From NCBI GenBank assembly GCA_002163975.1, contig CP019636.1, forward strand, positions 1,737,001 to 1,801,000: a stretch of 64,000 bases of DNA, in the 5' to 3' direction. This DNA comes from Nostocales cyanobacterium HT-58-2. Its GTDB lineage: Bacteria > Cyanobacteriota > Cyanobacteriia > Cyanobacteriales > Nostocaceae. Made by a program: the position numbers and the translations under genes. Below the pieces are notes generated by a model. That model was not told where the DNA came from. It did no database searches and was given only the letters and a program-made list of their open reading frames with translations. Shown one piece after another: positions 27,722-46,966 of the stretch; positions within the stretch are counted from its first letter, which is position 1, and the number at the start of each line of letters is the position of its first letter.

Positions 27722-29293
27722 ATGCAGGACAGGCAAAAACAAATTTCACAAGTGGTCGTCACCACACAGCAGATGCGCGATATCGAAGAACGCATCTTTG
27801 CAGCGGGAATGCCTGTAGCTGCTTTGATGGAGAAAGTAGCAGGACTGATTGCCCGTCGCGTTCAAAGAGGATGGGGAGAAAGGGAGAGAGGAAGCCGGGT
27901 TGGCATTCTCGTTGGTCCCGGTCACAATGGCGGTGATGCTTTAGTTGTTGCCCGTGAGTTGTACTTTCACAGGCTAGAAGTCTTAATATATTGTCCTTTT
28001 TCTAAACTCAAGGAATTAACTTCGCAGCACTTGCAGTATGCTAAGAGTCTGGGCATACCGTGTTATGAGACAATTGAGCCCCTGCAAGATTGTGATTTGT
28101 TGGTTGATGGGTTGTTTGGATTTGGCTTAGAAAGAACGCTCACAGATCCGATAGCTACCGCCATCAATCAGCTTAATGAATGGAAGAAACTAGTTATTAG
28201 TATTGATTTGCCTTCAGGGTTACACACAGATACGGGCGAGGTGTTAGGAACTGCGGTGTGTGCAACGCACACCCTATGCTTGGGTTTATGGAAGCTTGGT
28301 TTATTGCAAGACCAAGGTCTTGACTATGTCGGCAAAGCTGAGTTAATAGATTTTGATATTCCCTTGGCTGATATACAAGCTGTCTTGGGTGATTCACCAA
28401 GCATTAAACGGATCACAAAAACAACTGCACTCTCGACTTTGCCTCTACCTCGTCCGCCAGTTACCCACAAATACAAGGAAGGACATTTATTACTGATTTG
28501 TGGTTCGCGTCGATATTCGGGAGGGGCAATATTAACCGGGTTGGGAGCAAGGGCAAGTGGTGTAGGTATGCTCTCAATTGCTGTGCCAGAATCTCTCAAG
28601 CCAATCATGGTAGCACAGTTGCCTGAAGCCCTGATTATTGGGTGCCCAGAAACAGAATCTGGGGCGATCGCCCAACTGCAACTCCCACCAAAAACTGATA
28701 TCAATTCATTTGATGTGATCGCCTGCGGTCCCGGTTTAACACGAGATGCACGCCCAATCTTACAGGAAGTATTAGATAGCACTAATACTTTGGTTCTCGA
28801 TGCTGATGGTTTGAATATTCTCGCTGAAATGGGAACCATTTTAACGTTACAAAAGCGACAATATCCTACCGTACTTACACCCCATACTGGTGAGTTCAAG
28901 CGCTTGTTTCCTGATGTTTCTGATGCAAACAAAGATAGAGTGCAAGCGGTGCAGGAAGCGGTGGTGCAAAGTGGGGCAGTGGTGTTATTGAAGGGAGCAA
29001 GAACTGCGATCGCTAACTCTCAAGGTCAGGTCTGGATAAATCCCGAAAGTACTCCTGCTTTGGCGCGTGGTGGGAGTGGTGATGTATTAACTGGGCTTAT
29101 GGGTGGATTATTGGCGCAAGCTTCTTCTAAAAAGATTTCTGTAGAGGAAATTGTGGCAACGGCTGCTTGGTGGCATGCTCAAGCAGGGATTTTAGCAGCA
29201 CAAGAGCGGACAGAGTTGGGGGTAGACGCTCATACCCTGACAAATTACCTCATAGCTGTTTTAGCATCAAGCTTGACAAGATTCACAGATTAA
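27722..29293 (+). CDS. nnr: Bifunctional NAD(P)HX epimerase / ADP-dependent dehydratase
   Basis: 523 residues, two fused enzymes that repair hydrated NAD(P)H. The N-terminal YjeF_N epimerase (about 1-230) has VGILVGPGHNGGDALVVAREL. The C-terminal ribokinase-like YjeF_C dehydratase (about 240-515) has LLICGSRRYSGGAILTG, DADGLNILAE, TPHTGEFKRL and the signature GGSGDVLTGLMGGLL. Length and order match the family. A terminator-like hairpin follows at 29312-29337. Confidence 0.95.
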   Translation: MQDRQKQISQVVVTTQQMRDIEERIFAAGMPVAALMEKVAGLIARRVQRGWGERERGSRVGILVGPGHNGGDALVVARELYFHRLEVLIYCPFSKLKELTSQHLQYAKSLGIPCYETIEPLQDCDLLVDGLFGFGLERTLTDPIATAINQLNEWKKLVISIDLPSGLHTDTGEVLGTAVCATHTLCLGLWKLGLLQDQGLDYVGKAELIDFDIPLADIQAVLGDSPSIKRITKTTALSTLPLPRPPVTHKYKEGHLLLICGSRRYSGGAILTGLGARASGVGMLSIAVPESLKPIMVAQLPEALIIGCPETESGAIAQLQLPPKTDINSFDVIACGPGLTRDARPILQEVLDSTNTLVLDADGLNILAEMGTILTLQKRQYPTVLTPHTGEFKRLFPDVSDANKDRVQAVQEAVVQSGAVVLLKGARTAIANSQGQVWINPESTPALARGGSGDVLTGLMGGLLAQASSKKISVEEIVATAAWWHAQAGILAAQERTELGVDAHTLTNYLIAVLASSLTRFTD

Positions 29294-29569: not shown

Positions 29570-32398
29570 CTAATGCTTCACTGGAACCTTCATGGTGTAC
29601 GCTTTGTCTAGGCAAAGCTTCAATTTCTCTGCCAGCACCTGTACATGGGGTTCATCGAGAAGTGTAAGGTGAGAGCCAGGAACATAATGCACATCTATTC
29701 CTCCAGCGACTAACTCGCCCCAACCAAATAGCGGATCGTACTGCATACCGACAGCTGTATCCCGATTTTTATCCTCAGTCCGCAAAAGTGTCATTTGACC
29801 AGGATATACCTGGAAGGCATATTGCCTTTGAGCTTGGTCATTAGCATCTATAATTTCTAAGTGCTGGTCACCATCAGGTAACTGCTCCGACTTTTCCAAC
29901 AAACGCTTATATTTCTCTCTAATTTGGTATATTCCCCACTCACGCCAACCCCCTAGCTTTTGCTTAAGATAGACAGGTCCTTGTTGTAAAAAATTATTGA
30001 TATGCTCGAAAATTCGGATCAGGAAGGGGGCTCGCTTTTCAGTTCCAGGACGACTGGTATCAAGCATAACTAGAAGACCTATTTTCTCCCCTTGAGAGTA
30101 GAGTTGCTGAGCTATCTCGAAAGCAGCTATACCACCAAAGGAGTATCCTCCAATGAAATAAGGACCATAAGGTTGAATGGACTGGATTTCTCTAATATAA
30201 TGGGCTGCCATCTCTTCAAGCTGGGTGAATGGCGGTCGTTCTCCATCTAGTCCTTGTGGTTGTAGTCCATAAACTGGTTGGTCGGGTCCCATATGCAGTG
30301 CCAAGGCACGATAACATAAAATTTCCCCACCAAGGGGGTGTACAAAGAATAAAGGTGGTCGGGAACCATTGGGTTGAATTTTTACCAGGGATGACCAAAG
30401 AGCTTCTGATTTTTCCTGTCTTTGAGCTGCTGATAAGTCATCGACCAAAGCAAGATCGGATTTTAACCCCTGCTCATCAAGTGCTAGCACTTCTTGTTCG
30501 CGGAGCGTTTCGGCAAGAGCTTCCACTGTACCTGATTGGAGGAGCGTGGCTAGGGGAAGTTTTTTGCCAAACTTCTTCTCTATTTGAGCAAATAAGCTTA
30601 CGGCTAGCAAGGAATGCCCTCCCAAGTCAAAGAAGTTGTCCCTCACGCCAATCGGTTGAATGCCTAAAACTGCTTCCCAAATCTGCGAGATCTGTTGTTC
30701 TGCATCATTGCGAGGGGCAACAAATGTTGCTTCCAGCTCTTGCTTGTTTGCTTCAGGTGCAGGAAGGGCAAGGCGGTTTAGCTTGCCATTGGGTGTTAAA
30801 GGCAGGGTATCCAAAAATACAAAGGCACTAGGCAGCATATAATCGGGAACCTTATCCTGCAAATAGCGCCGCAGTTCGCTGGGAGTGGGTGCTGGCTCCC
30901 GACTGGGAACAATATAGGCAACCAGACGTTTGTCTCCCGGTATGTCCTCACGGGCAACCACTACAGCTTCTTTGACAGAATCATGATTCAGAAGCGCCAT
31001 CTCGATTTCACTGACTTCGATTCTGAAGCCTCTAATTTTCACCTGAAAGTCTTTTCGTCCCAGGTGTATCAGGCAGCCATCTGGCTCCATGCGTCCCAGA
31101 TCCCCCGTGCGATAAATTCGTTGACTTCCGCATAGTGGATCAGGCTGAAATGCTGTTTTTGTCAGTTCAGGCTTTTGCCAATAGCCTAAAGCTACGTATT
31201 CACTCTTGACGGCAATTTCACCAATAGAACCGCACTCAACTTCAACGCCTGCTTCATCAAGCAGCAGAATCTCTATACCTTCCACTGGGTAGCCAATCGG
31301 TACGGTACTGGTGTCGATCTGGGTGTTTTTGTCAACAATGAACTGCCGGACAGTTCCGGTTTCAGTGGCTCCCAGACCAACATACATGGCACAGTTTGAG
31401 GAGAAATATTTTTTGTAGAGATCTACATCTCTCCGTAAAACAGGTTCACCGCCAAATATGAGGACGCGAAGTTTGGGAAACTGCTGTTCTTCTGTAAGGA
31501 TGCCAACGAACTGTCGGAAGAGAGTCGCAACTGAATGGTAAATAGTGATTTCTTCTTGAATGAGCCAGTTGACTAAACTATTCAATCCCTCCTCTTTGAC
31601 GTTCAAAGGGTAGAGGGATGCACCATTAAGTAAGGCATTAGTGATGCCTCTCATTGCCCCCATAAAACCACAGGAATACAGAAGGGTTGAGCGGTCATTC
31701 GGGCTGATACACAAAGCGTTGGTATTATTCATACAATTATGCAGCACGTTGCGATGATTCTGCATAACTCCCTTTGGCTTCCCGGTTGAACCACTGGTAT
31801 AAATTATGTAAGCAATAGTATCAGGAGATACTTTTAAATCTAAATTATCTGTGGGAAGACTGAAATCAATATCATCAAGGTTCAATATTGGGCATTGCTC
31901 CTGAGCTAACTCACGGGCTAAAGCTAGATTTTTATTGTTGGTAACAATTAGAACTGCCTGTGAATCCTCAAGAATGTATGCAAGCCTGGTTTGGGGAGTT
32001 GAAGGGTCCATCGGTACATAGATTTTTCCTGTTTTCAAGACCCCAAACATGGCGGTAATAAAACTGGCACCTTCTAGCAACAGTGCGATAGCCCCTGTGG
32101 GGCGGTCGCTCTGCGCCATCGCTTCCTTTCCTTCTCCTCGCTGTGATAGGTGTGATACGATAGATCGTGCTAGACGATTAGCTTTTGTATTGAGCTGGTC
32201 ATATGTAAGTGTTTCGGTCTTGCTTTTAATCGCAATTGAGTTTGGATACCTATGAACTTGTTGTTCAAAACGACTTGCGATTGATTGCTCAATATCTTCT
32301 TTTTTGAATTCAATGAAGCCGTTGGGTGGGCTAATAAAACCGCTGGGAACAGGCTGCTTTTGTAGAAGCTCACAGGTGTGTCTGGAAGGATTGTTCAT
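29570..32398 (-). CDS. NRPS-like synthetase, A-PCP-TE
   Basis: 942 residues, no condensation domain. Adenylation domain about 35-545 (YIIYTSGSTGKPKGVMQNHR at ~201, YRTGDLGRMEPDG, NGKLNRLALP); carrier protein with DNFFDLGGHSLLAV at ~593; type I thioesterase at ~680-940 with GYSFGG at ~751. The substrate region reads LLYSCGFMGAMRGITNALLN, so the aspartate that binds an alpha-amino group in ordinary A domains (FDxSxW motif) is absent. The A-T-TE shape is that of stand-alone enzymes that activate one acid and release or dimerise it. An intergenic-type repeat is inserted in frame near residue 95. It is the third gene of the cluster. Confidence 0.9.
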   Translation of the reverse strand: MNNPSRHTCELLQKQPVPSGFISPPNGFIEFKKEDIEQSIASRFEQQVHRYPNSIAIKSKTETLTYDQLNTKANRLARSIVSHLSQRGEGKEAMAQSDRPTGAIALLLEGASFITAMFGVLKTGKIYVPMDPSTPQTRLAYILEDSQAVLIVTNNKNLALARELAQEQCPILNLDDIDFSLPTDNLDLKVSPDTIAYIIYTSGSTGKPKGVMQNHRNVLHNCMNNTNALCISPNDRSTLLYSCGFMGAMRGITNALLNGASLYPLNVKEEGLNSLVNWLIQEEITIYHSVATLFRQFVGILTEEQQFPKLRVLIFGGEPVLRRDVDLYKKYFSSNCAMYVGLGATETGTVRQFIVDKNTQIDTSTVPIGYPVEGIEILLLDEAGVEVECGSIGEIAVKSEYVALGYWQKPELTKTAFQPDPLCGSQRIYRTGDLGRMEPDGCLIHLGRKDFQVKIRGFRIEVSEIEMALLNHDSVKEAVVVAREDIPGDKRLVAYIVPSREPAPTPSELRRYLQDKVPDYMLPSAFVFLDTLPLTPNGKLNRLALPAPEANKQELEATFVAPRNDAEQQISQIWEAVLGIQPIGVRDNFFDLGGHSLLAVSLFAQIEKKFGKKLPLATLLQSGTVEALAETLREQEVLALDEQGLKSDLALVDDLSAAQRQEKSEALWSSLVKIQPNGSRPPLFFVHPLGGEILCYRALALHMGPDQPVYGLQPQGLDGERPPFTQLEEMAAHYIREIQSIQPYGPYFIGGYSFGGIAAFEIAQQLYSQGEKIGLLVMLDTSRPGTEKRAPFLIRIFEHINNFLQQGPVYLKQKLGGWREWGIYQIREKYKRLLEKSEQLPDGDQHLEIIDANDQAQRQYAFQVYPGQMTLLRTEDKNRDTAVGMQYDPLFGWGELVAGGIDVHYVPGSHLTLLDEPHVQVLAEKLKLCLDKAYTMKVPVKH
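32085..32122. repeat. Palindromic repeat inside the A-PCP-TE coding sequence
   Basis: GCGATAGCCCC-TGTG-GGGCGGTCGC plus TCTGCGCCATCGC is a dispersed cyanobacterial repeat; its right half recurs at about 4217-4236 in the decayed gene. Here it is translated as part of the adenylation domain (KEAMAQSDRPTGAIAL) without breaking the frame. Confidence 0.6.
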
Positions 32399-32926
32399 TG
32401 ATATCCTAAAAATTGTGAGTGATTGTGTTAGCTAGTTCTGCAAGTGTGGGAGTTTAAAGAAAAAAGCGAAAAGATAACCTCAGTTGTATATGTGCAAGCA
32501 CTCGCTTGAGGTTTAAGCCGAGAGAATAAAATATCCTCTCCACTGCAAGAATTGATTTTGGATGCACGCTGGTTTATCTTGAAATCTCAGATTATGCTTG
32601 ACTATGCTGCCACAGTAATTCTAGATACCTTAAATTTGGCTCTAGTTCACAAAGATAGATACACTCTGTGTCTTCTCTCTACCATGTCTTACTTATGAGT
32701 AGGTGTTTTTCTTGTATCTAAAAGAACAGATTTTCCCTGATTTTCTAAATATATAATCTTAAAACTTTTAAGTAAAATTGTCGCTACAAAGTAGCAAGTT
32801 TTTATACAATCTTTATCTTTTCTTTCATACGAAAGCATGAGAGAAAGACACGGAGAGGGAAGTGCCCTTTTGAGTACCCTTCCTTCTCGCCGTGTCTTCT
32901 TCGCTTGTAGATGTAGTAGGTTCTAA
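32399..32926. other. Intergenic region between synthetases 2 and 3
   Basis: 528 bp. It holds a long inverted repeat (AAGACACGG/CCGTGTCTT, 32845-32900) just past the ligase-KR-ACP-TE stop, the shared hairpin element at 32774-32816, and at 32399-32540 a stretch duplicated at 38109-38250. No gene is seen. Confidence 0.6.
32774..32816 (-). promoter_or_regulatory. Shared synthetase-upstream hairpin element, copy 1
   Basis: GCTAC-AAA-GTAGC (32783-32795) with flanking A/T pairs, next to ATACAATCTTTAT (32804-32816). The same arrangement with different stem bases is found at 38454-38490 and 43486-43526. On the minus strand the stem is followed by a short T-run. It may terminate the preceding gene, or act in the leader of the next. 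Confidence 0.5.
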
Positions 32927-35900
32927 TTACAATGGCAATGATACTTGAGTTGTTGTATGCGCCTTCTCCAAGCAAAGCTTCAATTTCTCTGCAAGCACCT
33001 GTACCTCAGGTTCATCGAGGATGGAAAGATGAGAGCCAGGAAGATGATAGACATCTATTCCTCCAGTTACTAAATCACCCCAACCAAAGAGCGGATCGTA
33101 TATGTCGCCTACAGCGTCAGTCCGAGTTTTATCGTCAGTCCGCAAGAGAGTCATGCAACCAGGATAAGCTTGGAAAGTATACTCACGCAGAGCTTGGTCA
33201 TTAGCGCCTAGAACGTCTAAATGCTTGTCACCCTCAGGTAAGTGCTCCGACTTTTCCAACAAACGCTTGTATTTGTCTCGGATATGGTAAGTGCCCCACT
33301 CACGCCAGCCTACAAGCTTTCGTTGCAGGTAGGCAGGTCCTTGTTGTATGAGATTATTTATATGCAGGAAAAATCTTAGCACAAAGGGCAATCGCTTCTC
33401 ACTACCCGGACGATTGGTATCAATCATAGCTAGAATACTCACTTCCTCACCTTGAGAGTGAAGTTGCTGTGCCATTTCGTAGGCAACTATACCCCCAAAA
33501 GAGTACCCTGCCAAATAATATGGACCTTTGGGTTGAACACTTTGGATTGCTTTAATGTAAAGCGCTGCCATGTCTTCCACGCGAGTTAATAAAGGCTGTT
33601 CACCATCTAGTCCTACTGGTTGTAGCCCATAAACTGGTTGTTCTGGTCCGAGATGTACAGCCAAAGGACGGTAACATAGGATTTCTCCACCAAGAGGATG
33701 GATACAGAACAAAGGTGGCTTAGAACCTTTGGGTTGAATTTCTACCAGAGAAGACCAAATAGTTGTTGATGTGTCTTGAGTCTTTTCTGATAGCACCTGA
33801 TTGCTAACGAATAACTCTTTTTCTTGGGAGATCTTCTTCGCAAGAGCTTCCACAGTACCTGATGGAAAGAGGGAGGCGAGAGGAAGCTTGATGCTGAATG
33901 TCTGCTCAATGTCTGAAAACAGTCGCACAGCTAGTAGCGAAGTTCCTCCCAACTCAAAAAAGTTGTCGTAGATCCCGACTTGCGGCAGATTCAACACTTG
34001 TTGCCAAATACTGGTAAGTTGTTGTTCTAACTCAGTTCTGGGGGCAACATACTCAGTAATCGTCTGTTGTCCTGTAACTGCCAGCCGCTTACAGTCAATT
34101 TTACCTGTGTCTGTTAGCGGTATTTCTTGAACCTGGAGGAAACCACAGGAACTTCGCGTTCCAAAGCGATCGCACACTTCTAGTTTTTGCAACTTGGCAA
34201 CCGAAACCTGGTCAGTGTGCGCAGTGAAATATGCAGATAATTTCTGGACACGATGGGATTTGGTCTGCATATGGCGTCGGACATGAGGGTTGGTTCCATT
34301 TAATCCGACAATCAGATGCGCTGGCTTATGGTGCAAGCTAGCAAGGAAGGAATTCAATCCCTGCTCTTTCGACATGACTTCACGACCTTGAGCAAGACGT
34401 GAATCCCGATATTCATAACCACGGCTGATACCTGTTCCGCCCCATGTACTTGAACCAAAGCAATAACTTTGCAACCCACTGTTGTATCTCTGGTAATGCC
34501 AAAAGCCGTCAAGGAAACTATTAGCGGCGGCATAGGCACCCACATTAAACACTCCAAAAAAACTGATGACTGAAGAAAAGCTGATAAAGACACTGTTTGG
34601 CTGGTTCTTAAGGAGTTGATGCAGTACCCAGGTTCCCAATACTTTGGGACGAAGTGTTGTCGCTAAACTATTTTGCGTTTCCTCAATCACCAAACGCTCT
34701 TGACCAATCCCTGCTAGATGGACTACCCCATCCAACTCGCATTGCCAGTGGGACTTAGCTTGAGCAACGACTTGTTGCAACTGAGTCAAATCACAAATAT
34801 CAACGGCTTGGTAAAGAACTTCTCCTCCAAGCTCCTCTAAGGACAAGTAAGCTTTGATACGTGTGGATACAGCATCCCCTTGCTTTAGGTGCTCTTCCCA
34901 TGTACTTCTTTCTGGCAGAGGAGTCCTGCCTAGCAACAATAGTCGAGCTTGGTAGTGTTGCAGCAGATATCGAGCAATCTCTATGCCAATTTCACCCAGA
35001 CCACCGCTGAGTAAATACATCCCGCCGTGCTTGAAGGGTAATTCCTGCTTTTGCTCCTGCCGGATGTCAACTTTCTCTAAACGGGGGACTAAACGTTGCC
35101 CGTCACGGTAGGCGACCTCTCGTTCCCTCTGAATGATTTGAAGTTCTCGCAGAACATAAGCAGCATTGGCGTCGCCCTGTTCTGCAGATAAATCAATATG
35201 GCGACAGTCTAACCAGGGCATTTCCTGAGGAATTGTTTTAATCAAGCCAAGTAACGGTGTTTTCTCGTAAGCAATCTCGTCTTCTGGCTTTGTGGGCTGT
35301 GTGTAGCTGGAAATCACAGACAACCGTACGTTTGTCTTTGAACCTTGGATTTTTGAGAGTGCTTGGACTAAGAACAGCAGACTGTAGACTCCACATTCTT
35401 GTGCCTGCTCCAGCGCCTCCAGGCTGGAAACTTCTCCCTCATACTCACCATAAGTCCACAGATGCAGAATCTGATCGATTTGAAGATTTGCTTGTTTTAG
35501 AGACTCAAAGAGCTGCTGATAATGCTCAGGATTCTTAGGATCGATGGAATAAGAGTTGTCACTGAGTTGAGCAAAGTCTGATCCGACCTCGACAGTCACG
35601 CACGGCGCATTGCTCTGACCCAATTGCGCACATAGGCGCAGACCTAATCCCAAGTGATCGTGGAACACCAGAGACTGACTCATTTTTGGTTGAGTGGTGA
35701 TGGTGACCGCTTCTTTCCGACGCCAAATCTTTTTGTAGAACCAGTCTGGAAGCGTGTTGGCATTGCCAGTGAGGATGTCAATCTGTTTGACAATTGCGTT
35801 AAATTCACCTGCTTCAAAGCGCTTTTTCAGTTGCGATCGCTGGATCTTCCCAATTGCAGTTTTAGGTATAGCTTTCTTCTCAACAGGAATGAGATAAGCC

Positions 35901-37987
35901 GGATTCACTCTTATCTCGCGAACAACGTTCCCCCGGATTTCCTTGAGCAATTCTGCTAATTGGTTGTCATCAGTCAAGGGAGTATGGAAAAAAATGACTA
36001 ATTGGTCAGTATCGCCTTCGGGATCTCGGACTGCACAGGCAGCAGTATAAGAAACTTCCACCCCATCAACTGCCTCGACGACCGCTTCGATTTCATGACT
36101 GTAGTGATTCAGACCGTTGATGATGATGACATCTTTCTGCCGACCAGTGATAGTGAGACGCCCTTGATGGAGAAACCCCAAATCTCCTGTCTTCAACCAT
36201 CCATCCTCGGTAAACGCCTCTTGGTTGAGTTCAGGATTTTGATAGTACCCATAGGTAATCATCGGTCCAGAAATCTGCAACTGACCAATTGTATCCTCTT
36301 GTACCACTTCCCCTTGGGTATTGACAATACGCATTTTAAAACCGGGGATGGGCGCGCCTACTTCCACAAAAGGATAGTCATCCGATGGTAAATTCAACAA
36401 ATACCGATGTGAGAATGTCACGCCTGCACAAGTCTCGGTCATACCCCAAGCTGAATGCATAGCTTCAGGAGATAGTCCGTGAGGCGCAAGCAACTCTAAA
36501 AACCTTTTTGCTGTCTTAGGCACAATCGCTTCAGCCACCGACAACAGAGATTTCACTGTAGATAAATTCCAACTGCGTTGCTGAATGGCTTCTGCCTGAG
36601 CGTTAACTAATCCTAGGGCGAAATTAGGTGCCCAAGCGAATGTGACTCGATATTGCTCAATCCAATCCAACCACCTCAGTGGATTTTCTAACACAGCTTC
36701 TGCAGGAACGTGGATCTGTTGGGAACCAACATAGATGTCGCGAATAGAACAGCGAACAAGGCTACCTACGTGATCTAAGTTCAACCAATTCAATGAAACA
36801 TCTTCACGCCTGAAACCGTTCATCTGAGCGCTTGCAGACACATTGCTCAAGATGTTACGGTGGCTGAGCATCACACCTTTAGGAATGCCCGTGCTGCCAG
36901 AAGTCAGAATTAATACAGCCAAATCATCAGGCTGACTGATATGCCAGTTTTGGTCAGGTTTACATAAGCATAAATGCTCAATCGTTTCGACTTTAAAGTT
37001 TTCCAGACCCAAAAGGTTAGACAAGGAACGCACACCAGGAGCCAATTCTGCATTCGTTAGGATGAGGGGTTGCTCCAATATCTGCCAAGCATTGTGTAGC
37101 TTTTGAACAGTCGTGTTGACTGATTCATAAGTTGGAGCAGTCGATATTGGTACAGGGACAAAACCTCCTAAGATACAGCCCCAGAAAGCAGGGATGAAAT
37201 CCCAATTTTGGTTTAGCTGGAAAATCACTTTATCTTGAGGTTTCAAACCCAGCTTGCGTAGTCCTGCTAGAATTCGCTCCGCTTCCTTCAATAAATCCCC
37301 ATAGGACTGTACAATCTCAGAACCATCAGCCTGGAGGTAAACAATTCCTTTTTCTGGTACCTGAAGCACTGTGCGTTGTAGAGCTGCTGCCAGAGTGCTC
37401 GGATGATCTGCTTCCTCCAGCAGTGGCTCACCATAACTCATAGCTAACGCCTTCGATTCCTGCTGTTGTTGTAGTACCGCAACAGTGTTAACTAAAGAAG
37501 TGGGCAGGAATTCTGCAAGCAATTTTTCTTGATTGACATTCTCTGTTACACCCTTACCTTTGTGGTCAGGGAGCAGATCTGATAGATGTAGAGGAAGAAG
37601 TTTCTCTTTATACTCTTGAACTATGACTGCCGCCTGCTCGACTTCTGGCACAGATCGCAGTTCCTCTTGCCATCGCTGCACTAAGTTTGAGTCGATCGCT
37701 TCCAAATCAAATAAAGCTTGTTCATCCACCAAACCTTGGTCAGTCAAGGGCAGGGCAGACACCGGGACGTAGGCGCTTGGAACTATAGCAGCAGGCAACA
37801 CGGCTTGTAAGTGGGATTGTAGCTGCTCTAACGAAAATGTTCCTGCTGAGACTATATAAGCAACTAGCTCTCGTTTAGAAGATTCCGCTTCCCGGACTAG
37901 CACGACACAGTCATCAATCAGCGGATAGTCCAGTAGAACTGATTCCACGATTTGCTTATCTGTGATATTATTGATAGTTACTTCCAT
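32927..37987 (-). CDS. Acyl-AMP-ligase / ketoreductase / carrier protein / thioesterase megasynthase
   Basis: 1686 residues from the ATG at 37987, which has AGGAGG ten bases upstream (a longer frame to 38083 lacks this). The order is: a lone adenylation C-terminal subdomain (~10-100); an adenylate-forming ligase (~200-770; VLILTSGSTGIPKGVMLSHR at ~366, GWLKTGDLGF); a ketoreductase (~980-1200; LLSGGLGEIGIEIARYLL, SFSSVISFFG, VGAYAAANSFLD); an acyl carrier protein (DNFFELGGTSLLAV, ~1347); and a thioesterase (GYSFGG, ~1495). Ligase-KR-ACP recalls the loading module of aeruginosin synthetase, where a keto acid is activated and reduced to a hydroxy acid. There is no ketosynthase. This role is inferred. 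Confidence 0.88.
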   Translation of the reverse strand: MEVTINNITDKQIVESVLLDYPLIDDCVVLVREAESSKRELVAYIVSAGTFSLEQLQSHLQAVLPAAIVPSAYVPVSALPLTDQGLVDEQALFDLEAIDSNLVQRWQEELRSVPEVEQAAVIVQEYKEKLLPLHLSDLLPDHKGKGVTENVNQEKLLAEFLPTSLVNTVAVLQQQQESKALAMSYGEPLLEEADHPSTLAAALQRTVLQVPEKGIVYLQADGSEIVQSYGDLLKEAERILAGLRKLGLKPQDKVIFQLNQNWDFIPAFWGCILGGFVPVPISTAPTYESVNTTVQKLHNAWQILEQPLILTNAELAPGVRSLSNLLGLENFKVETIEHLCLCKPDQNWHISQPDDLAVLILTSGSTGIPKGVMLSHRNILSNVSASAQMNGFRREDVSLNWLNLDHVGSLVRCSIRDIYVGSQQIHVPAEAVLENPLRWLDWIEQYRVTFAWAPNFALGLVNAQAEAIQQRSWNLSTVKSLLSVAEAIVPKTAKRFLELLAPHGLSPEAMHSAWGMTETCAGVTFSHRYLLNLPSDDYPFVEVGAPIPGFKMRIVNTQGEVVQEDTIGQLQISGPMITYGYYQNPELNQEAFTEDGWLKTGDLGFLHQGRLTITGRQKDVIIINGLNHYSHEIEAVVEAVDGVEVSYTAACAVRDPEGDTDQLVIFFHTPLTDDNQLAELLKEIRGNVVREIRVNPAYLIPVEKKAIPKTAIGKIQRSQLKKRFEAGEFNAIVKQIDILTGNANTLPDWFYKKIWRRKEAVTITTQPKMSQSLVFHDHLGLGLRLCAQLGQSNAPCVTVEVGSDFAQLSDNSYSIDPKNPEHYQQLFESLKQANLQIDQILHLWTYGEYEGEVSSLEALEQAQECGVYSLLFLVQALSKIQGSKTNVRLSVISSYTQPTKPEDEIAYEKTPLLGLIKTIPQEMPWLDCRHIDLSAEQGDANAAYVLRELQIIQREREVAYRDGQRLVPRLEKVDIRQEQKQELPFKHGGMYLLSGGLGEIGIEIARYLLQHYQARLLLLGRTPLPERSTWEEHLKQGDAVSTRIKAYLSLEELGGEVLYQAVDICDLTQLQQVVAQAKSHWQCELDGVVHLAGIGQERLVIEETQNSLATTLRPKVLGTWVLHQLLKNQPNSVFISFSSVISFFGVFNVGAYAAANSFLDGFWHYQRYNSGLQSYCFGSSTWGGTGISRGYEYRDSRLAQGREVMSKEQGLNSFLASLHHKPAHLIVGLNGTNPHVRRHMQTKSHRVQKLSAYFTAHTDQVSVAKLQKLEVCDRFGTRSSCGFLQVQEIPLTDTGKIDCKRLAVTGQQTITEYVAPRTELEQQLTSIWQQVLNLPQVGIYDNFFELGGTSLLAVRLFSDIEQTFSIKLPLASLFPSGTVEALAKKISQEKELFVSNQVLSEKTQDTSTTIWSSLVEIQPKGSKPPLFCIHPLGGEILCYRPLAVHLGPEQPVYGLQPVGLDGEQPLLTRVEDMAALYIKAIQSVQPKGPYYLAGYSFGGIVAYEMAQQLHSQGEEVSILAMIDTNRPGSEKRLPFVLRFFLHINNLIQQGPAYLQRKLVGWREWGTYHIRDKYKRLLEKSEHLPEGDKHLDVLGANDQALREYTFQAYPGCMTLLRTDDKTRTDAVGDIYDPLFGWGDLVTGGIDVYHLPGSHLSILDEPEVQVLAEKLKLCLEKAHTTTQVSLPL

Positions 37988-38000
37988 AGCGATCGCCCTC

Positions 38001-38108
38001 CTAATCTTGTTTTGTGAATTCGATGAAGCCGTTGGACAGACTAGTGGAACAATTGTCAACAAGATGCTTTTGTGGAAGAGCACAGGTGTGTCTGGAAGGA
38101 TTGTTCAT
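38001..38108 (-). CDS. 35-residue leader ORF, copy of the A-PCP-TE N-terminus
   Basis: ATG at 38108, TAG at 38001-38003. The sequence opens MNNPSRHTCALPQKH and ends NGFIEFTKQD, matching the N-terminus of the 942-residue synthetase (MNNPSRHTCELLQKQ ... NGFIEFKKED). The stop overlaps the AGGAGG ribosome site of the next gene, whose ATG starts 13 bases later, so translation could be coupled. It is either a real leader peptide or the trace of a duplicated segment. Confidence 0.45.
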   Translation of the reverse strand: MNNPSRHTCALPQKHLVDNCSTSLSNGFIEFTKQD

Positions 38109-38535
38109 TGATATCCTAAAAATTCTGAGTGATTGTGTTAGCTAGTTCTGCAAGCGTCAGAGTTTGAAGAAAAAAGCCAAAAGACTACCCCACTCGTATG
38201 TGTATTTACACTCGCTTGAGGTTTCAGCCAGGAGAGTAAAATGTGCAAGAAGTGATTTTTAACACTCACGGACCTTATCCCAAGACCTCAAATTGTAGCT
38301 GACTACACTCCTACAGTGATTTCAGATCCTTTAGAATTTGGTTTAGTTTAGAAATGTAGATACACTTTAAGTCTTCTTTCATGATTTACCTTATTGCAAG
38401 GTACTTTTTATTTAGTTAATGTCCTAAGTAATCTTAAGACTTATTAAGTAAAAAAACTGCTAGAACTTAGCAGTTTCATAAAATCTTTATTTAGTCTTTA
38501 AGAGAAAATGTTTTAACTGTTCCTTAATGGCACTT
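38109..38535. other. Intergenic region between synthetases 1 and 2
   Basis: About 430 bp. From 38109 to about 38250 it is a near copy of 32399-32540 (TGATATCCTAAAAATT, then GTGATTGTGTTAGCTAGTTC). It contains the hairpin element at 38454-38490. No gene apart from the leader ORF. Confidence 0.6.
38454..38490 (-). promoter_or_regulatory. Shared synthetase-upstream hairpin element, copy 2
   Basis: AAACTGCTA-GAACT-TAGCAGTTT (9-bp perfect stem, 38454-38476) next to ATAAAATCTTTAT (38478-38490). On the minus strand the stem is followed by TTTT, so it can also work as an intrinsic terminator of the C-A-PCP-TE gene, which ends 60 bp upstream of it. Confidence 0.6.
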
Positions 38536-41500
38536 TCAAGCGGAGATTTGAGCAGCACAAGAACCTGTATCATGGAATACGAGGTTAAATTCATATGCTT
38601 TCTCCAGGCAAAGCTTCAATTTTTCTGCCAACGTTTGTACATCAGGTTCTTCAAGCAGGGAAAGGTGAGAGCCAGGAATATAATGCACATCTATTCCTCC
38701 AGTGGCTAGCTCATCCCAACCAAATAGGGGATCGTACTGCATACCTACAGCAGTATCCCGATTTTTATCGTCAGTCCGTAAAAGAGTCATTTGACCAGGA
38801 TATGTTTGGAAATTATACTGGCGAAGAGCTTGATCATTAGCGCCTATAATGTCTAAGTGCTCGTCACTTTCAGGTAACTGCTCCGAATTTTCCAACAAAC
38901 GCTTGTATTTCTCTCGGATTTGGTATGTGCCCCACTCACGCCAACCTACAAGCTTTTTCTGTAGGTAAAAAGGTCCCTCTTGTAAGAAATTATTGATATG
39001 CTCGAAAACTCTCATAAACCAGGGTGATCGCTTCTCTGAACCTGGGCGACAAGTATCAAGCATAACTAGAAGACCCAGTTTCTCACCTTGAGAGTGAAGT
39101 TGCTGTGCCATCTCAAACGCAACCGTACCTCCAAAAGAGTAACCGCAGATAAAGTAAGGACCATTGGGTTGAATTGTCTGGATTTCTCGAATGTAGTGAG
39201 TTGCCATATCTTCAACGCGAGTTAAGGGAGGTTGTTTTCCATCTAGTCCTAGTGGTTGTAGCCCATAAACTGGTTGGTCTGATCCAAGATGCCGTGCCAA
39301 AGGACGGTAACACAAGATTTCTCCACCAAGAGGATGTATACAAAACAAAGGTGGCTTAGAACCTTTGGGTTGAATTTTTACCAAGGATGACCAAGGATTT
39401 GTTGAGGTGTCCTCACCTGCATCTATCAAAACATAATGACCAACAGCTTTTTCCTCTCCACTGCGCAGCATCATAGCAAGAGTTTCTACTGTACCTGACT
39501 GGAAAAGGCTGGCCAAAGGAAGTTTTTTGCCGAATTTTTGCTCAATTTGTGCAAATAAGTGTACGGCTAGTAAGGAATGTCCCCCAATATCAAAGAAGTT
39601 ATCGTGTATGCTCACGGGGTGGACGTGTAAAACGTCTTCCCAAATCTGCGCTAACTGGCGTTCTAACTCATCACGAGGAGGTACAAAGTTTGCCTCCGGC
39701 TCTGGCTTTGCAAGTTCAGGTGCTGGAAGAGCGCTACGGTTAACTTTGCCGCTGGGAGTGAGGGGCAAGCTTTCCAACAATACGAAAGCGAATGGCACCA
39801 TGTACTCAGGCAGCTTTTCTTTAAGGAAGTGACGCAAATCACTGACTATGGGTGCTGGCTCTTGATTAGGAACAACGTAGGCTACCAAACGTTTTTCGCC
39901 CCTGACGGCTTCACGAGCAACGACTACAGTTTGAAGTACCGCTGGGTGTTGGTTTAATACAGCCTCTATCTCTCCCAATTCAATGCGGAAGCCCCGTATT
40001 TTGACTTGGTAATCACTGCGTCCGATGAACTCAATACTACCATCACTTAAGAACCGAGCTAAGTCCCCAGTTTTGTAAAGCCGTGCCCCTTCTTTTTGGG
40101 TAAAAGGGTCGGGAATGAATTTCTCATCTGTTAATTCTGGGCGGTTGAGGTAACCTCGGGCTAGTCCCAAACCACCAATGTGCAGTTCCCCTGGCATACC
40201 AACGGGGACTGGTTGCATGTGAGAATCAAGCAGATAAATTTGCGTGTTTGCGATCGCGCGACCAAGAGGAACAATTTTTACCCGTTCATCCTGTTGTGCT
40301 GGAATCGGATAGGTTGCAACAATTCCACAGGTTTCTGTTTGACCAAACATATTGATTAATTGTGCCTGATGCTGGAAGCCAAACCTCCACTGAGTGGGAA
40401 TATCAGAGAGTAATGGTTCGCTTGCAGAGACAATCAAGCGCAATTTGTTGTCTAATAAAGCTTGTCTTGTTTGAGGCTCTAGGCTATCTAGCGTATGAAT
40501 GCAGTTGCGCCAATAAGAGGGAACGATGTCAATCACCGTGACATCGTATTGTTTCATTCCTGCAAACAGTGCTCTGGGGTCTGTTCTCTCTTGGGAAGTC
40601 GCAATTTTAACAGTAGCACCTTGAGCCAGTGGCACCATGAATTGTCTAACGGAAGATGAGAAAGCAATCGATGCTGTATGCAAATACACATCTTCTGTTG
40701 TAATACCTAGTGCTTGCCCCATTGCTTGGGCGTAATGACACAAGTTAGCGTGTGTGACTTGAACCCCTTTGGGTTTTCCAGTTGAGCCAGAGGTATAAAT
40801 CACATAGGCTAAGTTGGCAGTTGTTGCAGTCTGGTTTAAGTTTGCTTGTGAGTGTTGAGCAATTGATTGGCGATCGCCATCAAAACAAACAACTTGCGCT
40901 GTATGTTCAGGTAATTCTGTTTTCAAAGACTCTTGGGTCAATAACACCAGAGGTTGAGAATTGTGCAACATGAACGCCAAGCGCTCTTTAGGATACGTTG
41001 GATCTAGAGGCACGTAAGCTCCACCCGCTTTGAGAATCCCTAAAAGTCCTACGACCATCTCAAGGGAACGTTCTACAAAAATGCTCACTAGGACTTCTGG
41101 ACCAACCCCCAAGGTCCTCAAGTAGTGTGCTATTTGATTAGCACGACTATTCAACTCTCGGTAGGTGAGTTGTTGGTCTGCAAACATCACAGCCACAGCA
41201 TCCGGGGTTCGCTCCACGAGTTGTTCAAATAACTCATGAATACACTTATCCTGGGGATAGTCTGCGTGAGTCTGGTTCCACTCAACAAGTAACTGGTGAC
41301 GCTCGCCTGCTGTTAACAATGGCAATTCGTTAATATGTTGCTCTGGGTTAGTAACAATTCCCTCCAATAATGTCTGGAAATGTCCACTCATGCGGCTGAT
41401 TGTAGCTGCATCAAACAGATCAGTGTTGTATTTCCACTCTCCCTGTAGTCCTTGTTCTGTTTCCGTGATTGACAGTGTTAAATCAAACCTGGAGGTAACG

Positions 41501-42753
41501 TTATCCAAGTTGAAGGGTGTTAAGGTCAGTCCTGGCAACTCCAATGTTTGTCTGGGTGTATTCTCCATGACAAACATCACCTGGAACAAAGGGTGATACG
41601 AGAGCGATCGCTCTGGTTGCATTTCTTCAATCAGCTTGTCAATGGGCAAATCCTGGTAGGCATATGCGGACATTGCAACTGATCGCACCCTTTGCAAGAG
41701 TTCTCGAAAGCTAGGATTGCCTGACAGATTGGTGCGTAGTATTAGTGTGTTGACAAAATATCCAATGAGACTTTCTAGCTCTGGCAAATTTCGACCTGCG
41801 ATCACAGAACCGACGAGGATGTCAACTTGATTGGTATAGCGATACAGCAGGAGTTGAAAAGTTGCCAACAATGTCATGAACAGTGTGACACCTTCTTGAT
41901 CTGACAGTGCACGAAGTGCTGAAGATAGACTCTGGGGTAATATGAAGGATTGCTGTGCACCACGATAAGTCTGAATTGGTGGTCGTGGTCGATCTGCGGG
42001 CAACTCTAGTACTGGGTTTGCACCCACGAGTTGCTGTTTCCAATAGTTAAGTTGATTGTCTAGCACTTGACCAGAGAGCCATTGACGTTGCCAAACAGCA
42101 AAATCAGCATACTGGATGGGCTGTTGTGGCAGAGGATTGGGCTTTGTATTTAAGAATGCTTTGTAAAGGTTGACTAATTGTTCAAACAAAATGCTCATAG
42201 AAGAGCGATCGGCGGCGATGTGGTGCATGACCAATAGCAGGATGTGCTCTTGTGATGATAGCTCCAGCAAACAGGCGCGTAGCATCAAATCAGATATTAA
42301 GTTGAAGGGGCGTTGTGCCTCATTTTGTAGCAGCTGTTGTATTTGGGTGTTGCGCTCAGTTTGGGGACAATCCTTGAGATGAATCACTTCCAATTCCACT
42401 GACTGAGACTGATGAATCACCTGTAGCGGGTTGCCATCCTGTGTTGTGTAGTTAGTTCGTAGAACTTCATGGTGAGCGACAATGGCATTTAAAGACTGTT
42501 GCAGCACCGCTACATTCAAGTCGCCTTGCAACTTCCAAGCCTTAACGATGTGATAGGCTGAATCATTGGTTTCCATTTGTGCCAGAAACCACAATCGTTG
42601 CTGGGCAAAAGATAAAGGAGCGGGTTCATAGTCAGTTCTTTTAGGAATGGTCTGCTGCCTTTTGACATCAGCACTTTTGTTTTTAAGCTCTAGCTTCAGT
42701 GGAACCCTGTTAGCTGGTGAGAGAGCGACAATCTTTTTGCTGATATCATCCAT
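38536..42753 (-). CDS. NRPS, C-A-PCP-TE
   Basis: 1405 residues. Condensation domain ~45-480 (PLSFAQQRLWFLAQ; active site MHHIAADRSS with both His and the Asp, but Arg in place of the usual Gly after Asp). Adenylation domain ~490-1005 (AYVIYTSGSTGKPKGVQVTH ~654, LYKTGDLARF, SGKVNRSALP). Carrier DNFFDIGGHSLLAV ~1056. Thioesterase with GYSFGG ~1204. In the A domain the FDxSxW motif reads AFSSSVRQF, so the amino-group-binding Asp is Ser. It is first in the cluster on the minus strand. A condensation domain next to a TE lets it join an upstream acyl chain to its own monomer and release it. The substrate is unknown. Confidence 0.92.
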   Translation of the reverse strand: MDDISKKIVALSPANRVPLKLELKNKSADVKRQQTIPKRTDYEPAPLSFAQQRLWFLAQMETNDSAYHIVKAWKLQGDLNVAVLQQSLNAIVAHHEVLRTNYTTQDGNPLQVIHQSQSVELEVIHLKDCPQTERNTQIQQLLQNEAQRPFNLISDLMLRACLLELSSQEHILLLVMHHIAADRSSMSILFEQLVNLYKAFLNTKPNPLPQQPIQYADFAVWQRQWLSGQVLDNQLNYWKQQLVGANPVLELPADRPRPPIQTYRGAQQSFILPQSLSSALRALSDQEGVTLFMTLLATFQLLLYRYTNQVDILVGSVIAGRNLPELESLIGYFVNTLILRTNLSGNPSFRELLQRVRSVAMSAYAYQDLPIDKLIEEMQPERSLSYHPLFQVMFVMENTPRQTLELPGLTLTPFNLDNVTSRFDLTLSITETEQGLQGEWKYNTDLFDAATISRMSGHFQTLLEGIVTNPEQHINELPLLTAGERHQLLVEWNQTHADYPQDKCIHELFEQLVERTPDAVAVMFADQQLTYRELNSRANQIAHYLRTLGVGPEVLVSIFVERSLEMVVGLLGILKAGGAYVPLDPTYPKERLAFMLHNSQPLVLLTQESLKTELPEHTAQVVCFDGDRQSIAQHSQANLNQTATTANLAYVIYTSGSTGKPKGVQVTHANLCHYAQAMGQALGITTEDVYLHTASIAFSSSVRQFMVPLAQGATVKIATSQERTDPRALFAGMKQYDVTVIDIVPSYWRNCIHTLDSLEPQTRQALLDNKLRLIVSASEPLLSDIPTQWRFGFQHQAQLINMFGQTETCGIVATYPIPAQQDERVKIVPLGRAIANTQIYLLDSHMQPVPVGMPGELHIGGLGLARGYLNRPELTDEKFIPDPFTQKEGARLYKTGDLARFLSDGSIEFIGRSDYQVKIRGFRIELGEIEAVLNQHPAVLQTVVVAREAVRGEKRLVAYVVPNQEPAPIVSDLRHFLKEKLPEYMVPFAFVLLESLPLTPSGKVNRSALPAPELAKPEPEANFVPPRDELERQLAQIWEDVLHVHPVSIHDNFFDIGGHSLLAVHLFAQIEQKFGKKLPLASLFQSGTVETLAMMLRSGEEKAVGHYVLIDAGEDTSTNPWSSLVKIQPKGSKPPLFCIHPLGGEILCYRPLARHLGSDQPVYGLQPLGLDGKQPPLTRVEDMATHYIREIQTIQPNGPYFICGYSFGGTVAFEMAQQLHSQGEKLGLLVMLDTCRPGSEKRSPWFMRVFEHINNFLQEGPFYLQKKLVGWREWGTYQIREKYKRLLENSEQLPESDEHLDIIGANDQALRQYNFQTYPGQMTLLRTDDKNRDTAVGMQYDPLFGWDELATGGIDVHYIPGSHLSLLEEPDVQTLAEKLKLCLEKAYEFNLVFHDTGSCAAQISA

Positions 42754-43775
42754 ATTTCGTAACCCTCATTGCTATTACTTAATTAATGGACATGAACAGA
42801 AGTCATCCGTCTATGAGATTTTTCTCATCTTTCATCCTTCAGAAATACTACTAATGAAACTTATCCTTTCTTCCAGTGAAAAGAGAAGTTTTTCCTCTTT
42901 TTATGACTACATGGAAGATTTTGCCAAAAGATTAGCATTATGGCTTAGCTAAATCTAAGTTTTCAATTTTTCCCATTTTTTACTAAATTCTATCTACTGG
43001 CTGTCTCAGAAATGAGATCTATCACTCGAATGCAAATAGAGCATTTGAATAAAGTTTTAGAAGTTGTCATACAAGCCATATTTTCTGTTTGACTACAGTG
43101 TTCGTTTTAGCTATTTCGGAAAGAATTCTAAAAAAGTCAAAACAATCTCATCATCTTTTTGAGTTTATCAGTAGAAACTTGAGTTGAGAATTTAGAGGCA
43201 AAAATACATTGAAATCAGTAGTTAGGCAAAATTAAAGTTACGAATGGAGGCAGGAAACTCTTAACAGAAAACGGACAACAGCACAGAGAATGTGTAATTA
43301 ATTTTGTTTAGATACTTACCTAGAAACGAAAACGTGCAGTTTACCTTTTATTTTTGACAGTAAAGAACATCAATGGTATACTTTTAAACAATGGTCAAAA
43401 ATTTTTACATGGTATTTTTGCTCGTTACGATTCAGAAATATAATCTTGACAGCTTATAAATAAATTATTTTATGATTGATGAAATAAAAGTGCTGCTATG
43501 CTCAAGCACTTTTATAAAATCTTTATCGGCTCTTTAAAGAAAATTTATTAACTGTACTTATATATTTATCCTTAATTAAGTCAGAGCAATATTAAATCAC
43601 AAATTCAAATTAAAATAGACCAAAAATTAGATAACTTTTCATAATTTTAAGGAAAACTTAGAGTTACGTACTGTTTAACTTTGGATACCCTCACTGATAA
43701 TCACTGATAAATTTGTGTCTTCAGTATTGATGCACCTGATGATTTTTTGTTTCTTAAATAAGTTTAATTATCCAG
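42754..43775. other. 1-kb AT-rich region upstream of the synthetase cluster
   Basis: Both strands hold only short frames without motif or ribosome site. It must contain the promoter of the cluster. The only structured element I see is the hairpin at 43486-43526, about 740 bp upstream of the first start. Confidence 0.5.
43486..43526 (-). promoter_or_regulatory. Shared synthetase-upstream hairpin element, copy 3
   Basis: AAAAGTGCT (43486-43494), a 10-nt loop and AGCACTTTT (43505-43513), next to ATAAAATCTTTAT (43514-43526). The downstream 13-mer is identical to that of copy 2, while the stem bases differ. Confidence 0.55.
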
Positions 43776-46273: not shown

Positions 46274-46948
46274 TTAGCTGCTACGAGTGTACTTCTGTAA
46301 ATTTGCCGGAATCTTTGCTGGTACAGTCCAGAAGTAAACTGTTCTACCGTCTACTTGCTCAACTTTCTCAGGTTTCCAATCGCCCATGTCAAAAGCGTGC
46401 GATACAATACGGGTACCTGGTTTGAGTTTCAATAGCTGTGGAATCAACTTGACATTGAGTTCGGGTAATAAGTAGAGAGTTACGACTGTTGCATCGCTAA
46501 AGTTACTCTTGAACAAGTCTTGTTGCAGAAACTGCACTTGACCTGTGACACCCGCTTTTTTGGCGTTTTCGTTTGCCTCTTTGATGCGTTCTGGGTCAAT
46601 ATCTATACCAACAGCTTTCTTGACTTTATACTTTTGTACTGCAGCAATGGGAATCCGTCCATCACCACTGCCAAGGTCATATAGAGTATCTTTTGAGGTG
46701 ACATTGGCGATTTTTAACATTCTATCAACGACTTCTGGAGGTGTTGGTACATACACAACATCAGGTGTTCGTTCCGCAGGTTGGGGTGTGGAAGTGGGAC
46801 TAGACCGCTGCTGTACTTCTACAATGGAAGGCGATGCTTCATCCTGTACTTGGGAACTCACTTGCTCTTGCTGAGTGCAACCAGCCAACATCAGGCTACC
46901 TACACTCACTGTTGTAAACAAAACCTTGAACATTGCCTGTAATTTCAT
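46274..46948 (-). CDS. Lipoprotein with SAM-dependent methyltransferase domain
   Basis: 224 residues from the ATG at 46948, preceded by GGAGAG at good spacing. A signal peptide with lipobox (VGSLMLAGC) precedes a low-complexity linker. From about residue 70 (VYVPTPPEVVDRMLKIANV) there is a class I methyltransferase: DTLYDLGSGDGRIPIAA, AVGIDIDPERIKEANENAKK, and DLFKSNFSDATVVTLYLLPE. A methyltransferase on a lipoprotein is uncommon because SAM is cytoplasmic; either the anchor faces the cytosol side or another ligand is bound. It follows the permease gene by 18 bp, so the two form an operon. Confidence 0.8.
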   Translation of the reverse strand: MKLQAMFKVLFTTVSVGSLMLAGCTQQEQVSSQVQDEASPSIVEVQQRSSPTSTPQPAERTPDVVYVPTPPEVVDRMLKIANVTSKDTLYDLGSGDGRIPIAAVQKYKVKKAVGIDIDPERIKEANENAKKAGVTGQVQFLQQDLFKSNFSDATVVTLYLLPELNVKLIPQLLKLKPGTRIVSHAFDMGDWKPEKVEQVDGRTVYFWTVPAKIPANLQKYTRSS

Positions 46949-46966
46949 GACATCTCTCTCCATGAA

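Follow-up and report, generated by a model that had tools for sequence, protein, structure and literature searches.

Why do three neighboring synthetase genes, all on one strand, each end in a thioesterase (TE) domain, and do they form one assembly line or three? The question is raised by a 64,000-nucleotide stretch of the genome of Nostocales cyanobacterium HT-58-2 (contig CP019636.1, positions 1,737,001 to 1,801,000; hereafter the window), in which genes A, B, and C encode synthetases that combine condensation (C), adenylation (A), ketoreductase (KR), and thiolation (T) domains in different ways. Our preferred answer, held with moderate confidence, is that they are three autonomous one-module synthetases, each of which would load and release a small carboxylic acid other than an α-amino acid, and that they stand on a common chassis of promoter, leader, and T-TE end whose cores are swapped.

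An earlier note made from the sequence had read the genes as C-A-PCP-TE, ligase-KR-ACP-TE, and A-PCP-TE, lacking a ketosynthase and a second condensation domain, and had proposed three separately released building blocks, or else TEs that act as ligases or dimerizing domains. Open reading frames (ORFs), Pfam matches, and intact catalytic motifs confirmed this layout (Table 1). The Pfam series, with every match above the Pfam cut-off, runs Condensation, AMP-binding, PP-binding, and Thioesterase in gene A; AMP-binding, KR N-terminal subdomain, KR, PP-binding, and Thioesterase in gene B; and AMP-binding, PP-binding, and Thioesterase in gene C. Near its N terminus (residues 46–117) gene B has, in addition, a short piece of an A-domain C-terminal subdomain (Asub), and Pfam found neither a ketosynthase nor a second C domain in the three synthetases. 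The TE Ser/Asp/His triads, the T-domain Ser, the KR motif GGLGEIG with its Ser and Tyr/Asn, and the C-domain HHxxxD motif are all present. The T-TE ends are homologous, with protein identities of 66% between A and B and 60% between B and C, indicating that the "three TEs" are a single TE lineage in three copies. Genes A and C are 51% identical in protein over A-T-TE, and the DNA of the homologous stretches of the three genes is 73–78% identical. With three TEs, the window does not hold a single colinear line with one terminal TE; that arrangement was found only in a fused relative (locus L113, below). The genome, of 7.9 Mb, contains 53 A-domain matches and 15 thioesterase-family matches, two of them weak.

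The distribution of the genes bears directly on their autonomy. We surveyed 217 genomes of the family, the window genome included, and scored two to four candidates per genome, so that the occurrence counts of A, B, and C are lower bounds. Gene B is full-length in at least 12 genomes, lies in two pieces on separate contigs in G082, and is part of a fusion in G022; its copies in G063 and G179 have a stop codon within the aligned stretch, yet lie in ORFs of 1662 and 1663 residues. A further B-type gene in G021 (L234) is cut by the contig end and has a more distant TE. Gene A occurs in at least 7 genomes, its orthologues spanning five genera, and gene C in at least 17. Relatives of about 1,400 residues that end ahead of the TE were common in the family survey of gene B. 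Outside the family, no relative of gene A above 60% identity was listed among 291 genomes of the order (at least 29 of them from the family), with two candidates scored per genome. At the loci that were opened, neither partner is adjacent for 10 of 11 B genes, 5 of 6 A genes, and 11 of 13 C genes (some contigs end nearby). The ratio of nonsynonymous to synonymous substitution rates (dN/dS), computed over whole genes, is 0.14–0.27 in all nine pairs, which indicates purifying selection. Since other genomes have each gene in the absence of its two partners, separate release of three products is the better interpretation, as the earlier note had supposed. Together with the dN/dS values and with intergenic gaps of 452 and 528 bp, the lone orthologues suggest that genes A, B, and C are probably not a single assembly line.

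The best solved relative of gene B is StsA (PDB entry 6ulw; E = 1.4e-247, residues 146–1416 in two stretches), followed by McyG, and the StsA alignment begins upstream of the A core, at residue 146. Homology to a solved keto-acid module extends over A, KR, and T, and gene B has a hydrophobic residue for the amine-binding Asp-235 (HVGS) and a residue other than Pro in the GPTE motif (WGMTE). Judged by these features, gene B is a predicted α-keto-acid module of the StsA/AerA type. The resemblance to the aeruginosin loading module that had been noticed before is real, and the StsA match supersedes a reading of gene B as a fatty acyl-AMP ligase. The loading protein AerA has the layout A-KR-ACP, according to the available part of PMC10143770, as have the TE-less gene B relatives of about 1,400 residues. 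Like the StsA/cereulide-type modules and AerA, gene B joins a keto-acid A domain to KR and T and has lost both the Asp and the GPTE Pro; unlike them, it ends in its own TE and has no downstream C domain. There is none in the protein, and no C-domain protein comes next at any of 11 opened B loci, where the aer genes were not searched by name.

The A domains of genes A and C resemble ordinary A domains in sequence and, taken as conventional amino acid modules of nonribosomal peptide synthetases (NRPSs), lack both Asp-235 and the GPTE proline. Position 235 is Ser in gene A, Val in gene B, and Met in gene C; the proline is replaced by Gln, Met, and Ala, respectively. As a background we took the 30 best-scoring of the 53 matches to the amino acid A-domain model and set gene A aside; among these 29 other A domains of the genome, Asp-235 is found in 29, the GPTE Pro in 27, and Arg-239 in none. 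The StsA keto-acid domain shows the same two changes (I306 and M415) in the part of PMC11253843 available to us. The loss of Asp-235 and of the GPTE Pro, as named for StsA, thus suggests that all three genes probably load acids lacking an α-amine, which fits the keto- or hydroxy-acid direction proposed at the outset. In layout, gene A matches the C-A-T-TE modules AB3403, EntF, and SrfA-C, from which its A domain differs in the absence of Asp-235 and the GPTE Pro. Gene C, compared by layout and not by sequence, resembles the A-T-TE aryl-keto-acid synthetases AtrA, CorA, RalA, and EchA and is likewise without Asp-235.

All three pockets carry an arginine at or beside the third code position (FSSSVRQ in A, FMGAMRG in C, and HVGSLVRC in B). 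In the gene B family, all 12 relatives whose T-TE is of this kind carry the Arg, among them the fusion, as does L234; 18 of 18 others, StsA, and McyG lack it. Two of those 18, L030 and L033 (the same genes as in L124 and L125), end in more distant TEs (36–38%); the TE of L234 is similarly distant, being 38–40% like the locus TEs. An A-KR protein of G085 (L235) has no Arg, and a TE stands at the end of a separate 368-residue protein on the next ORF. The Arg-bearing members look like one clade, so the Arg of the gene B family probably arose once. Orthologues of gene C divide into an Arg class, seen in 6 genomes, and a Leu class, seen in 11; the former occurs with A or B genes in 5 of its 6 genomes and the latter in none of its 11 (Fisher p = 0.001, for classes defined post hoc). 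The simplest reading of the pocket Arg is that it faces a charged or hydrogen-bonding side group on a common substrate. Taken further, three distantly related cores may have converged through this Arg on the same non-amino acid, for example a dicarboxylic keto or hydroxy acid related to 2-oxoglutarate, within a fixed leader/T-TE chassis, and would then make a new class of one-enzyme keto/hydroxy-acid metabolites; we regard this extension as rather doubtful.

Several pockets elsewhere combine these features differently. The L116 module (DVRPFALLAK), which lies outside the background sample, has Asp-235 together with Arg-239. The N-terminal A domains of L126, L131, and L151 (from a UBA11372 genome, Moorena bouillonii, and a Rokuibacteriota genome) lack Asp-235 and have an Arg at the same place. 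Named relatives of the gene C A domain reach at most 54% identity among the matches listed, the best six being cyanobacterial, in a scan with two short patterns in which 13 of 78 loci were opened.

Comparison of the locus in relatives provides the evidence for a chassis. The convergent neighbor of gene C, nnrDE, served as locus marker. Its homologue adjoins one or more synthetase genes in 7 of 47 loci compared, with different contents: gene A only in four (L108–L111), gene B only in L094, B and C in L092, and a B-A fusion with one TE in L113. None was seen at the remaining A, B, and C loci, which are situated elsewhere or on contigs that break off. We aligned L111 (A type) with L094 (B type), from two species of one genus. 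DNA identity is 94% upstream, 87–92% over the promoter and leader to about codon 31, 88% in the T-TE part, and 92% in nnrDE; L094 has an extra ~2.1 kb upstream and 4.3 kb downstream. Between these parts, which match at 85–94% overall, the cores, of about 3.0 and 4.0 kb, show no DNA match, and their proteins share a distant A-domain match of 23% identity and a short subdomain match of 31%, and nothing else. By DNA match, the first breakpoint falls beyond about codon 31 and the second within the T domain, shortly before the GGHS motif.

The L111 gene A protein carries a scar. It starts MHDISNKTAVLSTAKKELPDNITDKQIVEAA, nearly as the fusion and gene B do, and this B-type leader, NITDKQIVEAA included, leads straight into PLSFAQQRLWF of the C domain. 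A B-type leader running into a C domain is best read as a B-A fusion that has lost its B core. Such a fusion exists in G022 (L113), where B and A form one two-module protein with a single TE; compared with L111, it has an additional unmatched stretch of 0.7 kb within the A core, and the codes are DILPLGMIWK and SSRPVAMGIK, respectively. Deletion scars of this kind, with relic gene C leaders upstream of gene A in L108 and L110 (67–70% identity) and a relic gene B start upstream of gene C in L100, could also mean that loci with A only or B only are in decay, having arisen by deletion from an ancestral gene of two modules. We consider this very improbable: purifying selection in all nine pairs contradicts it, the motifs of the window genes are intact, and gene A has orthologues in five genera.

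A second locus behaves in the same way. The flanks of L100 (A and C) and L089 (B) match at 79–95%. The region ahead of gene A in L100 resembles that ahead of B at 75%, and the T-TE of this gene A shares 88.7% identity with the local B type. In L100, C and A are separated by an OrfB transposase gene of the IS605 type (6678–7901, minus strand), a possible agent of rearrangement.

A tree of 41 T-TE sequences places the A, B, and fused genes of genus g8 together (support 92/92, below the program's star) and groups A of G076 with B of G078 and G063 (100/100). One T-TE clade per enzyme type was rejected by the approximately unbiased (AU) test for A (p = 7e-35) and for B (p = 6e-6). Matching flanks, leader, and T-TE around unlike cores, and T-TE trees that do not follow enzyme type, make the locus look like a release chassis into which loading cores have recombined. 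Comparison of this locus among relatives reveals the genes as mosaics from core exchange on a common leader and T-TE, a point that the earlier note missed.

In the model that we propose, the A domain of gene B would activate an α-keto acid with ATP and place it on the T domain as a keto-acyl thioester, the KR would reduce this with NADPH to an α-hydroxyacyl thioester, as the StsA/AerA homology suggests, and the TE would free the hydroxyacyl product. Gene C would load a keto- or hydroxy-type acid, to be freed or self-condensed by its TE. Gene A would act like gene C, with a front C domain that could attach a donor acyl group through an ester or amide bond. The promoter, leader, and T-TE would remain while the core (C-A, ketoA-KR, or A) is swapped, stacked, or deleted through recombination. 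The TE must accept what KR-containing, C-containing, and plain cores make, and this favors simple hydrolysis, or transfer to a small nucleophile common to all, over a highly specific cyclization. A structural model of the gene C TE (mean predicted local distance difference test score 84.9) is that of a generic type I TE, with AB3403 as the best PDB match (root mean square deviation 7.0, template modeling score 0.68). TEs acting as ligases or dimerizing domains and a depside or furanone-like product, as raised in the earlier note, are conjectural and find no support in this fold, which matches type I TEs in general.

The exchange of T-TEs between cores bears on a different view of gene C, and perhaps of gene A, as an aryl-α-keto-acid enzyme like the A-T-TE quinone and furanone synthetases, whose TE joins two arylpyruvates by a C–C bond. 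The tri-domain layout is the same, Asp-235 is missing from gene C, and PMC10316625, in its available part, describes how such enzymes dimerize aromatic keto acids. We judge it quite unlikely here, as a TE exchanged between KR- and C-containing cores argues for a plainer reaction and the pocket Arg is no obvious aryl signature. The window gene C differs from those synthetases in having Arg-239 and in a T-TE related to the NRPS-line T-TEs of the same genome family.

Several observations weigh against the combination of autonomous enzymes and a chassis. The G022 fusion demonstrates that A and B cores can be consecutive modules, and the second A domain of that fusion has Asp-235 and a Pro, as in the amino acid type. 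Genes A and B occur together in G000 and G192, and also in G021 if L234 is counted. G021 and G085, which have no gene B at the A locus, hold keto-acid modules elsewhere (L234, A-KR-T-TE; L235, A-KR plus a separate TE); with a TE in or adjoining both, these two ruled out the idea that A-only genomes are free of keto-acid modules. The background sample of A domains, made up of the best matches to an amino acid model, favors canonical residues, and 23 of the 53 matches lie outside it. With N-anchored numbering the gene B Arg comes out one column later; only an alignment anchored at the helix end brings it into register with the others. One clade for the C-type T-TEs was rejected weakly (AU p = 0.03). 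Finally, the terminator evidence is weak (z = −2.2), and the region has no excess of terminator-like matches over shuffled sequence (18 against a mean of 14.2, S.D. 4.3).

Some of these points would be expected if the genes formed one trans-acting line, in which B passes its α-hydroxyacyl thioester to the C domain of gene A and the spare TEs proofread or are redundant. The fusion joins the B and A cores in that order, with C and T-TE homologous to gene A, the A and B leaders of genus g8 are nearly the same sequence, and B-type keto-acid modules are present elsewhere in two genomes with gene A, G021 and G085. We nevertheless consider a trans-acting line unlikely. In the window gene A is followed by B, and B by C; each of the three ends in a TE of its own, with the triad intact; and the copied leaders and long gaps suggest separate units. 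No gene A was seen in 12 of 14 genomes with B (one of the 12 being the fusion genome G022), and for G084 and G086, with two candidates scored per genome, the highest-ranking gene B matches listed are T-TE stretches. Membership in a longer line, one part of what would have told against the initial description, holds for L113 but was not seen in the window genome. Three enzymes presumed to act independently in vivo remain our preferred reading.

Recombination of cyanobacterial NRPSs is well documented. Predominantly Acore exchange, with the Asub-T interface kept, is reported in the accessible part of PMC8097286, and cluster mixing in that of PMC12184294. The present locus is a mosaic of the same kind, and the stretch that parts L113 from L111 is itself an Acore-sized swap. 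It differs from the exchanges in that part of PMC8097286 in that the unit exchanged between leader and T-TE is an entire core, replaced by one of another type. In limited searches of the open-licence literature we did not meet a stand-alone keto-acid A-KR-T-TE enzyme or whole-core exchange at a fixed locus; the domain families are already known, and these two features look new. For NRPS engineers, the locus indicates where to cut a core and join a foreign T-TE, as evolution apparently did at two loci in close relatives, with breakpoints readable to a few codons and genes kept under purifying selection. One-gene enzymes of this kind could be overlooked or misread as broken assembly lines. The three proteins are expressible, and their putative substrates are directly testable.

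Table 1. Features of the synthetase locus, in window coordinates
Feature	Position	Strand	Remarks
Gene A, C-A-T-TE synthetase	38536-42753	-	1405 residues; ORF and Pfam
Gene A, C domain	41287-42621	-	
Gene A, A domain	39745-41229	-	code SSRPVAMGIK; A5 motif FGQTE
Gene A, T domain	39475-39657	-	
Gene A, TE domain	38620-39354	-	
Gene B, keto-acid A-KR-T-TE synthetase	32927-38083	-	up to 1718 residues; ORF and Pfam
Gene B, N-terminal Asub piece	37733-37948	-	
Gene B, A domain	35795-37363	-	pocket HVGSLVRC; A5 motif WGMTE
Gene B, KR region	34442-35632	-	
Gene B, T domain	33836-34024	-	
Gene B, TE domain	33011-33718	-	
Gene C, A-T-TE synthetase	29570-32398	-	942 residues; ORF and Pfam
Gene C, A domain	30782-32269	-	code MGRAIGGTVK; A5 motif LGATE
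Gene C, T domain	30503-30697	-	
Gene C, TE domain	29627-30355	-	
Upstream region and start of gene B	38004-38380	-	copied leader; 76% identical over 388 nt to the same part of gene C
Upstream region and start of gene C	32294-32679	-	partner of the copy ahead of gene B
Hairpin and T run directly after gene A	38453-38477	-	terminator-like
Copy of the post-A hairpin region, upstream of gene A	43461-43555	-	73% over 96 nt
nnrDE, NAD(P)H-hydrate epimerase/dehydratase	27722-29293	+	convergent neighbor; locus marker

The copied leader ahead of gene B holds an in-frame relic of the first codons of gene C (MNNPSRHTC...). The listed GTG start of gene B sits within this copy, and the true start is probably the ATG at 37987. 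The second copy of the post-A hairpin region, upstream of gene A, is possibly the relic of a lost fourth unit. Farther out in the window (46274–46963, minus strand), beside an amino acid permease, lies a methyltransferase whose score against an archaeal protein-lysine methyltransferase model is 151 bits (cut-off 200); no homologue of it was found at the 47 loci compared.

We also considered possible partner genes. Pfam on ten neighbors identified an adenosine deaminase, a kinase, a GDPD protein, a tetratricopeptide repeat (TPR) protein, a 2-oxoglutarate-Fe (2OG-Fe) dioxygenase, an ABC ATPase, a DNA ligase, a glycosyltransferase, an IS605-type transposase, and one protein without a family; no tailoring partner common to the A, B, and C loci was seen among them. 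A MysE-like A-T-TE of mycosporine biosynthesis was set aside, since no further pathway gene was recognized among six neighboring window proteins; the MysE sequence itself was not compared. In four genomes of genus g45 (L096–L099) gene B is followed by an ORF of 750–761 residues; the L096 copy was assigned no Pfam family, and among PDB entries it weakly matches the circadian clock protein KaiB (residues 219–293, E = 0.0005). A separate NRPS line with a sister T-TE (L117, L114–L118) has first-module codes that vary by genome (DLT, DVW, DVR, and DPR), and in G021 its code is the SSR of gene A, which points to A-core exchange among loci here as well. Lastly, a 2OG-Fe dioxygenase (PF10014) and a TPR protein precede the Leu-class gene C of L101 (4644–5312 and 7031–8299, plus strand), and homologues of the two (78–83% and 69–72%, respectively) precede gene C in L105, L121, and L122; they possibly constitute a partner pathway of the gene C Leu class.

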